Shown here: positions 41,427 through 43,981 of the stretch, piece after piece
Layout of the letters: every line of letters begins with the position of its first letter
Numbering within the stretch: position 1 is the stretch's first letter
Assembly: GCA_009886125.1 (NCBI GenBank)
Contig: VFJK01000061.1
Location: 1 to 64,000, forward strand
Length of the DNA stretch: 64,000 bases
Origin: Geobacter sp.
GTDB lineage: Bacteria; Desulfobacterota; Desulfuromonadia; Geobacterales; DSM-12255
Direction: 5' to 3'
Made by a program: the position numbers and the translations under genes
The notes under the pieces: generated by a model
Databases searched by the model: none
Told to the model about the DNA's origin: nothing
The model's input: the letters and a program-made list of their open reading frames with translations, nothing else

Positions 41427-41775
41427 TCCCGCCGCCTTTCATTATAGCAATCGCCTTGTGATGCAATTTTTCATCCATGTTGTATCTTAATCGTAGCTAA
41501 TGAGCTTATAAAACAGGGGGTTGAGGCAATTGCATTGCGACTAGCTACAAGTGCCACGCGCCAGAACAGGAGGAGCTACGACTTGATTAATAAGGAGGAG
41601 TATCGTATAGAAGGAGAAGCTTGATACATGTATCCCGGCACTCCCTTCGATACTTATCGTATCAATGTGCGGTGCCGTGTTTCTTTTCACATTTGTTTCA
41701 ATACCGTCATCTATTTGTCGATGTTGATGTTTTAAAGTGTGAGTTGAGAACGGACCGCAATACACATTGCCAGTC

Positions 41776-41939
41776 TCCGAGTCGCATCAACCTAAAAGGG
41801 AAAAATCCTCATGGTCTGCGACCTGTGGGTGTCGCCGGAAACAGCGCTGCCCTCCTTTGAAAAGGGGATCTCGTGCTTGACTTACCACTGCCGGTGGTTC
41901 GTCCGCGCCCCTTTTCTGTCCAGAGAAGGGGCTTTTTTT
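41776..41939 (+). promoter_or_regulatory. Candidate cis-regulatory leader (riboswitch-like) of the porin-tupA unit
   Basis: GTCGCA and TGCGAC form a stem around TCAACCTAAAAGGG...GGTC. Further on AAAAGGGG (41860-41867) could pair either with the local CCTCCTTT or with CCCCTTTT (41908-41915), which is the 5' arm of the terminator at 41907-41939. Such mutually exclusive pairings are typical of transcription-attenuating riboswitches. I could not match it to a known class. Confidence 0.5.
41907..41939 (+). terminator. Leader terminator ahead of porin
   Basis: GCCCCTTTTCT-GTCC-AGAGAAGGGGC followed by TTTTTTT, 46 bases upstream of the porin start. Confidence 0.82.
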
Positions 41940-41984
41940 GGGAGTAGTTTTTCAAGCAACATCAAATAAACAGGAGGGACACAG

Positions 41985-43070
41985 ATGAATTACAAAAAAA
42001 CGGTAGCAATCGCTGCAGCTGCAGGAGCACTCACCACAATGGCACTTCCGGCTTTTGCCGAAACCAGCCTGTACGGTTCTGCCCGAGTTGCGACTTTCTG
42101 GAACACTGAACAGCCTCTTCAAGCGGTTGGGGCTGCAAAGCCGGATACCAACACGGATTTTGATCTGCGCAATCAGAATAACAGCCGCTTTGGTGTAAAA
42201 GCGTCTGAGGGGAATCTGGCCGGTAGAGTAGAACTTGGCATCGGAACCCCCGGGCTCGGAACCGGCGGTAATACGACGGTCTACACGCGTCTCGCGTATG
42301 GTACCTGCAAATTTGACCTTGGCACGCTGCTGGTCGGCCAGAATTTTACCCCGTATGATTTTGTATCGCAGCAAGTGGCTCTGGACGACACAGGGAACAC
42401 CGGCTACGGCCGCCTGTATGACGGTCGTCAGCCACAGCTCAAGATGACGCTGAACAACGGAATGTACCTTGCTGCAATCCGTCCTGGAGGTAATGCTGCA
42501 GTTTATACAGCGTCTGAGACCTTTCTGCCCAAGTTGAACGTCGGTTATGAAGGCAAAGCCGGTACCGTTGCGTATGGCGGCGGTGTTGTCGGGCAGGTTT
42601 ACAAACTCAGCTCAGCTGACAAACAGATCGTCTCGGCCATGGGCTACGTACATGGCGTGGTTCCGGCTGGTCCTGCAAGCATTGCATTCAATCTCGGCGT
42701 TGGTCAAAACCTTGGCGAAATGGGATTGGCAGAAGGTGCGACTGCCAGTGTCGCTGGAACGAACGTTCAAAACAACTTCACTGTCTCTGCCATGGTGCAG
42801 GGTACTTTCACTGCTTCTGAAATGGTAAAGATTAATGTCGGGCTCGGGTATGTGACGACGAGTGGAAAAACAGCCGTCACAAGTGCATCAACGACATCCT
42901 GGAGTAAAGACGACAACAAGATGGCAGCATTCATAAATGCTCCCATTATGCTTGCCAAAAACGTTTCTGTGACACCGGAACTCACATATATCGACCAGCT
43001 GGATGAGAAAAATGGTAACAAAGGGGCGAAGAACTACATCTACGGCGCAAAATGGCAGATGGATTTCTAG
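41985..43070 (+). CDS. Outer-membrane porin
   Basis: Porin-like beta barrel of 361 residues. The signal peptide MNYKKTVAIAAAAGALTTMALPAFAE is followed by TSLYGSARVATFWNTE, the classic first strand of Gram-negative porins (xLYGxxRxxxxW). Amphipathic strands continue to the C-terminal aromatic YGAKWQMDF, the sorting signal. FGVKASEGNLAGRVELGIGTPG parallels NSRFGFKG-type porins. It is encoded upstream of a tungstate-binding protein and behind a possible regulatory leader, so anion uptake is a plausible role. Confidence 0.88.
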   Translation: MNYKKTVAIAAAAGALTTMALPAFAETSLYGSARVATFWNTEQPLQAVGAAKPDTNTDFDLRNQNNSRFGVKASEGNLAGRVELGIGTPGLGTGGNTTVYTRLAYGTCKFDLGTLLVGQNFTPYDFVSQQVALDDTGNTGYGRLYDGRQPQLKMTLNNGMYLAAIRPGGNAAVYTASETFLPKLNVGYEGKAGTVAYGGGVVGQVYKLSSADKQIVSAMGYVHGVVPAGPASIAFNLGVGQNLGEMGLAEGATASVAGTNVQNNFTVSAMVQGTFTASEMVKINVGLGYVTTSGKTAVTSASTTSWSKDDNKMAAFINAPIMLAKNVSVTPELTYIDQLDEKNGNKGAKNYIYGAKWQMDF

Positions 43071-43126
43071 GGAGCGATCGCACCTGCAACAAAAAAGTAT
43101 ATCCTGATGTGTTGAAAGGAGTACGG

Positions 43127-43981
43127 ATGATAACTCGCAAGCTGTGTACCGGGCTTTCTCTCATTATCGCTATGCTTTTCCTGTTCGTCTGTACGCTCCC
43201 GGCGGGAGCCGCCTCGAAAACGGTTATTCTGGCTACCACCACCAGCACCCAGGATTCGGGGCTGCTGGACGTGCTCGTGCCGCTGTTCGAGAAGGAGAGC
43301 GGTTTTCAGGTCAAGACGATTTCGGTCGGTTCCGGCCAGGCCATGAAGATGGGAGAGAAGGGAGAGGCTGATGTTTTGCTGGTGCACTCCCCCGATGCCG
43401 AGAAAAAGTTTATGCTGGATGGTTTCGGCTCCAGTCGCCGACTGGTCATGCACAACGACTTCGTCATTGTCGGACCTGCTGCTGACCCGGCAAGGATCAA
43501 AGGGGGCAAAGCCGCTGACGCTCTGAAGCGTATCGCCCAAGCCGGTGTCATCTTTGTCTCCCGAGGCGACAACTCCGGCACCCACGCCAAGGAGAAGGGG
43601 CTCTGGAAAGGGGCCTCTGTCAATCCGGAGGGGCAGAAATGGTACCAGCAGACCGGCCTCGGCATGGGGCAGACTCTGAGCGTGGCTGCCGAGAAGAAGG
43701 GCTATACCATTACCGACCGCGCCACCTACCTGTCACTGAAAAAGGGACTAGGTCTCGTTATACTGCTGGAGGGGGACAGCAAGCAGCTCAACATCTACCA
43801 TGTCATCGAGCTCAATCAGGTCAAGTGGCCCAAAGTCAACACCAAAGGCGGCAAGGCCTTTGCCGATTTCATGTTAGCGAAGAAGACCCAGGAGATCATC
43901 GGCAGCTTTGGAACGGATACATTCGGTGCACCGCTGTTCTTCCCGGATGGCGGGAAAACACCGGAGGAGTTGGGACTTTAA
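43127..43981 (+). CDS. tupA: Tungstate ABC transporter substrate-binding protein, orphan
   Basis: Periplasmic protein of 284 residues. After a signal peptide (about residues 1-28, ending LPAGAAS) comes VILATTTSTQDSGLLDVLVPLFEKESGF, the TupA signature with the oxyanion-binding TTTS. SVGSGQAMKMGEKGEADVLLVHSP, SRGDNSGTHAKEKGLW and ITDRATYLSLKKGLGLVILLEGD are further family blocks. ATG 43127 follows TGAAAGGAGTACGG; the track start lies in the porin gene. No tupB or tupC follows: the next feature is a terminator. Confidence 0.92.
   Translation: MITRKLCTGLSLIIAMLFLFVCTLPAGAASKTVILATTTSTQDSGLLDVLVPLFEKESGFQVKTISVGSGQAMKMGEKGEADVLLVHSPDAEKKFMLDGFGSSRRLVMHNDFVIVGPAADPARIKGGKAADALKRIAQAGVIFVSRGDNSGTHAKEKGLWKGASVNPEGQKWYQQTGLGMGQTLSVAAEKKGYTITDRATYLSLKKGLGLVILLEGDSKQLNIYHVIELNQVKWPKVNTKGGKAFADFMLAKKTQEIIGSFGTDTFGAPLFFPDGGKTPEELGL

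Follow-up and report, generated by a model that had tools for sequence, protein, structure and literature searches.

A P3-lacking Moco-class riboswitch, probably of the Tuco type, upstream of a porin and tupA in Geobacter sp.

In the 64,000-nt stretch of Geobacter sp. DNA analysed here (the window), a leader precedes genes for a porin-like protein and the tungstate-binding protein TupA. The locus raises the question of which signal this leader reads, and whether the porin belongs with tupA under its control. It bears on how tungstate passes the outer membrane in Gram-negative anaerobes that depend on tungsten. According to the present analysis, the leader is a P3-lacking, tungsten-cofactor (Tuco)-type Moco riboswitch joined to a transcription-termination platform, with a probability of roughly 0.87; for this reading we infer both the ligand and the OFF direction. 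The riboswitch class is already known, the subtype is the tungsten one and the terminator platform is ordinary. The modestly new point, provisionally, is the recurrent association of riboswitch, porin and tupA.

Aptamer and expression platform

When the window was compared with all 4227 Rfam families, only two matches stood above their gathering scores, a tRNA and RF01055, the Moco/tungsten riboswitch (Moco RNA motif). The RF01055 match (cmscan) covers positions 41763-41885 of the forward (+) strand, to which all features below also belong. It is full-length (model positions 1-135) and reaches 49.7 bits against a gathering score of 36, with an E value of 7e-9. The same aptamer scores 93.8 bits with R1, an own-family model trained on 29 sequences, the window's own among them. 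The cmscan structure line and a pair list place the 5' strand of P1 (GTCTCC, 41773-41778) inside the conserved CTCCGAG element. Its 3' strand (GGGGAT, 41864-41869), placed by the same evidence and by folding, overlaps the antiterminator arm, as does in part the 2-pair P5 (41853-41860; structure line and pair list). Alignment and pairing counts define P2 (41781-41822), which holds the internal loop CCTAA/CATGG of the tetraloop-receptor region, and the P4 hairpin (41827-41852) with its GAAA tetraloop at 41838-41841. The P3 stem is absent, its positions being deleted in the RF01055 alignment, and the conserved CUCCGAG, CCUAA...AUGG and GGAAAC elements are present together with P1, P2, P4 and P5. 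The stem GTCGCA/TGCGAC that the initial annotation had pointed out does exist (41781-41786 / 41817-41822) and belongs to P2. The functional unit, 41763-41939, is wider than the 41776-41939 first assigned.

Downstream of the aptamer core, two mutually exclusive helices can be formed. Most of the P1 3' strand lies within the switching sequence AAAAGGGG (41860-41867), which can form an unbroken helix with CCCCTTTT (41908-41915), the 5' arm sequence of the terminator; one flanking G-C pair brings this helix to 9 pairs. In the minimum free energy (MFE) fold of the region, the antiterminator spans 41859-41916. Its outer helix joins GAAAAGGGG (41859-41867) to CCCCTTTTC (41908-41916), and its inner helices join 41872-41875 to 41904-41907, 41879-41881 to 41901-41903, and 41884-41888 to 41894-41898. 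The intrinsic terminator is the hairpin GCCCCTTTTCTGTCCAGAGAAGGGGC (41907-41932, 11 pairs) with a T7 tract at 41933-41939; it lies 45 nt upstream of the porin ATG at 41985, shortly before the porin as had been annotated. The porin Shine-Dalgarno sequence AGGAGGG (41972-41978) is outside the switch. One strand of the aptamer thus also takes part in an antiterminator whose formation precludes the intrinsic terminator, which is the arrangement of terminator-type riboswitches. In folding, sub-transcripts with 3' ends at 41916-41925 take the antiterminator fold and those from 41932 the terminator fold. The ON and OFF structures that were chosen lie 2-3 kcal/mol apart, and therefore a ligand could tip the balance. 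Compared to shuffles, the fold of the leader has z = -2.2 and that of the switch region z = -2.4.

Both parts of the leader are conserved. Across 29 related sequences, 87% of the aptamer pairing is kept, and none of 500 shuffles equalled the aptamer in pairing, two-sided changes or covariation score. In the 24 related leaders that could be aligned, 95.2% of the antiterminator cells are paired, compared to at most 53.7% when the pairing is slid, and the terminator is 98.8% paired. Almost no change is seen in the outer AAAAGGGG/CCCCTTTT helix over these 24 leaders; consequently, the helix shows little covariation and its support is conservation. Among 48 diverse leaders, pairing of the P1 region is stronger with the terminator arm of the same leader (-10.3 kcal/mol) than with the arms of others (-8.5 kcal/mol), a preference reached in none of 10000 permutations of leaders that are related and hence not independent in this test. 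The alternative pairing proposed in the initial annotation, and its description of the leader as a riboswitch-type transcription attenuator, are borne out by an RF01055 aptamer and a conserved antiterminator/terminator exchange, and related leaders show aptamer covariation as well.

According to the mechanism most consistent with these structures, the P1 3' strand within AAAAGGGG would pair with CCCCTTTT when no ligand is present, so that the antiterminator blocks the terminator and RNA polymerase reads through into porin and tupA. Binding of Tuco would keep P1 closed and free CCCCTTTT for the terminator, and transcription would end before the porin. Most likely, then, sufficient tungsten cofactor shuts off both the porin and the tungstate binder. 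The entry of tungstate through the outer membrane and its capture in the periplasm would thus come under cofactor feedback.

Two further observations concern neighbouring and sister sequences. In the intergenic DNA upstream of the aptamer, a palindrome, GATACATGTATC, and a nearby GATACTTATCGTATC were seen by eye at 41623-41634 and 41649-41663; the region is possibly an operator, and the repeat finder reported no repeat there. A near-identical sister leader (L029 126-365, G010:C81) stands before another gene. The 3' arm of its terminator has imperfections (GGAATCGGGG, TTTATTTT), and a further switch on that sequence is seemingly cut by the contig start.

The porin, tupA and their relatives

The first gene of the operon (41985-43070) encodes a protein of 361 aa with a signal peptide-like N terminus. 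No Pfam family matches it at E 0.5, the phosphate-selective porin O/P family PF07396 included. A profile made from 22 homologues matches the DcaP-like porin 6eus (E 8e-5) and PorB 4aui (E 1e-3), so that the label "porin" rests on distant sequence similarity. The protein may be regarded as an unclassified porin, distantly DcaP/PorB-like.

The second gene is tupA (43127-43981), which encodes a periplasmic tungstate-binding protein, and no terminator was found between it and the porin. Its sole family match is NCBIfam NF041772 TupA, with 236.6 bits and under the 400-bit cut-off of that family, and the tungstate ABC transporter periplasmic binding protein of PDB 3lr1 is matched at E 2e-63. The gene has its own Shine-Dalgarno sequence, AAAGGAG, at 43115-43121; its start is probably 43127, the 43052 of the open reading frame list being too long. 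No second tupA was found in the assembly. tupB (71% identity) is on another contig (G000:C147:446-1141) and no riboswitch was found there; what the switch controls in this genome is therefore capture and not the permease. Two AFOR_N proteins, of a family that includes tungsten oxidoreductases, are also encoded.

RF01055 elements exist in 9 of the 13 genomes of the bacterial family, with up to 11 in each; in the assembly that holds the window, none was found beyond the window copy. With a model built from 29 sister-genome aptamers, a search of 80 named tupA loci from Desulfuromonadales-type bacteria recovered 58 elements. These elements are spread over 41 of the 80 loci and nearly always lie upstream of tupA. 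Several side features of these loci can be seen. Tandem P3-less Moco RNAs precede the tupA operons of L109, L111, L116, L118, L122 and L126, several with a terminator each. A second TupA-like protein (about 44% identical) is encoded directly before tupA in many loci (for example L104 4191-5045 and L134 4052-4903) and is absent in the window. Additionally, a dispersed repeat of about 65-75 bp (AGTGAGTTAGAA...hairpin...TTCGTGAACGAACTATCC) is inserted at the same site in the P5 loop of Tuco aptamers of several genomes, at L107 3602, L105 ~4400, L120 4332 (two tandem copies) and L139 4805, and also in L201, L202, L203, L225, L228, L187 and L189. None of the four repeat-bearing aptamers L105, L107, L120:4238 and L139 reaches the RF01055 gathering score in the Rfam scan. 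The idea that this insertion of about 75 nt is a conserved extra aptamer domain was rejected because only 6 of 40 further repeat copies lie in aptamers and 34 lie outside.

The porin may be a bystander, placed in the operon by chance, with the regulation of tupA alone being of importance. Among 30 loci of porin homologues, a Tuco-type riboswitch was found only at the window's own copy (the leaders of two others are truncated at contig ends), and a 55% identical paralogue stands elsewhere in the same genome. A conserved riboswitch before all porin homologues was likewise considered and rejected, the homologues outside the tupA setting having no such element. Against a chance placement, porins of different types recur upstream of tupA: among loci with enough upstream DNA, they are present in 12 of 36 with a riboswitch and in 2 of 34 without (Fisher p = 0.006, not corrected for relatedness). 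Nine of these 12 porins are related to the PF07396-type (OprO/P-like) porin of L104; PF07396 is matched in L104, L134 and L176, the porin of L107 is of the window type, and L108 and L109 have another barrel type. A bystander porin is accordingly rather unlikely. We infer that the window porin would pass tungstate. A larger proposal is tentative and falls somewhat short of even odds: the Tuco-riboswitch-controlled porin would be a dedicated tungstate entry channel, several porin families would have been recruited independently, and outer-membrane tungstate permeability would be under cofactor feedback. The riboswitch-porin-tupA unit names candidate outer-membrane tungstate channels. No description of the unit, and nothing joining tungstate, an outer-membrane porin and Geobacter, was found in the open-access literature.

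Ligand and class of the leader

The Moco RNA class is divided by P3 in the main text of Regulski et al. 2008 (PMC2408646), where the P3-less members are proposed to sense Tuco. The window aptamer lacks P3, has tupA as the second gene of its operon, and stands in a genome with tungsten-use genes (tupA, tupB and the two AFOR_N genes). The metal-oxyanion or cofactor signal that the initial annotation had suspected from tupA agrees with this class and subtype.

The same riboswitch and mechanism could serve the molybdenum cofactor, or molybdenum and tungsten might not be discriminated. Both types are pooled in one Rfam family, and the same main text gives the link of P3 absence to Tuco metabolism as a correlation, reports that removal of P3 alone from the E. 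coli RNA left specificity unswitched, and describes a P3-less RNA of P. carbinolicus before a predicted molybdate transporter (PMC2408646). However, P3 is missing from the window aptamer and from each of the 29 family relatives that were aligned, tupA is in the operon, and genes downstream of sister-genome elements resemble those of AOR and TupA-type proteins. Sensing of the molybdenum cofactor, or a lack of discrimination between the metals, is thus unlikely, and Tuco appears the better candidate ligand. With its clean terminator-based switch, the Tuco-type leader of the window lends itself to probing Tuco versus Moco specificity.

A constitutive attenuator, or a PyrR-type protein-binding one, is very improbable: the weak RF00515 match (25.9 bits) does not reach its gathering score of 54 and covers the generic antiterminator/terminator shape, and no pyrimidine genes lie downstream. 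Finally, a new riboswitch class, for which the failed by-eye fit of the initial annotation is all that speaks, is refuted by the Rfam/Infernal scan which that annotation had itself called for, with its full-length match above the gathering score, and by the column-by-column alignment with other RF01055 elements of the bacterial family.

Comparison with known systems

Compared to the P3-less RF01055 subtype (PMC2408646), the window leader has the same core sequences, P1, P2, P4 and P5 without P3, GAAA tetraloop and receptor region, terminator platform and downstream tungsten-transport gene. The difference is that the first gene of the window operon is a porin, a word absent from the main text of that paper. 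The E. coli moaA Moco riboswitch shares the aptamer class, P1 as the switching helix and cofactor repression (PMC2408646); however, it has P3 and a ribosome-binding site in P1, whereas P1 of the window competes with an antiterminator. The order of P3-less aptamer, porin and tupA is common to the window and the Desulfuromonadales-type leaders L104, L107, L134 and others. Unlike the window, most of these have a porin of the PF07396 type and, in many cases, another TupA-like gene. L107 has the porin type of the window and an antiterminator and terminator that align with it, but also an insert of about 75 nt in P5. The triple Moco RNAs of S. wolfei (PMC2408646) likewise combine P3-less aptamers with intrinsic terminators, in three copies as against the single copy of the window, and tandem copies are also found in several related loci.
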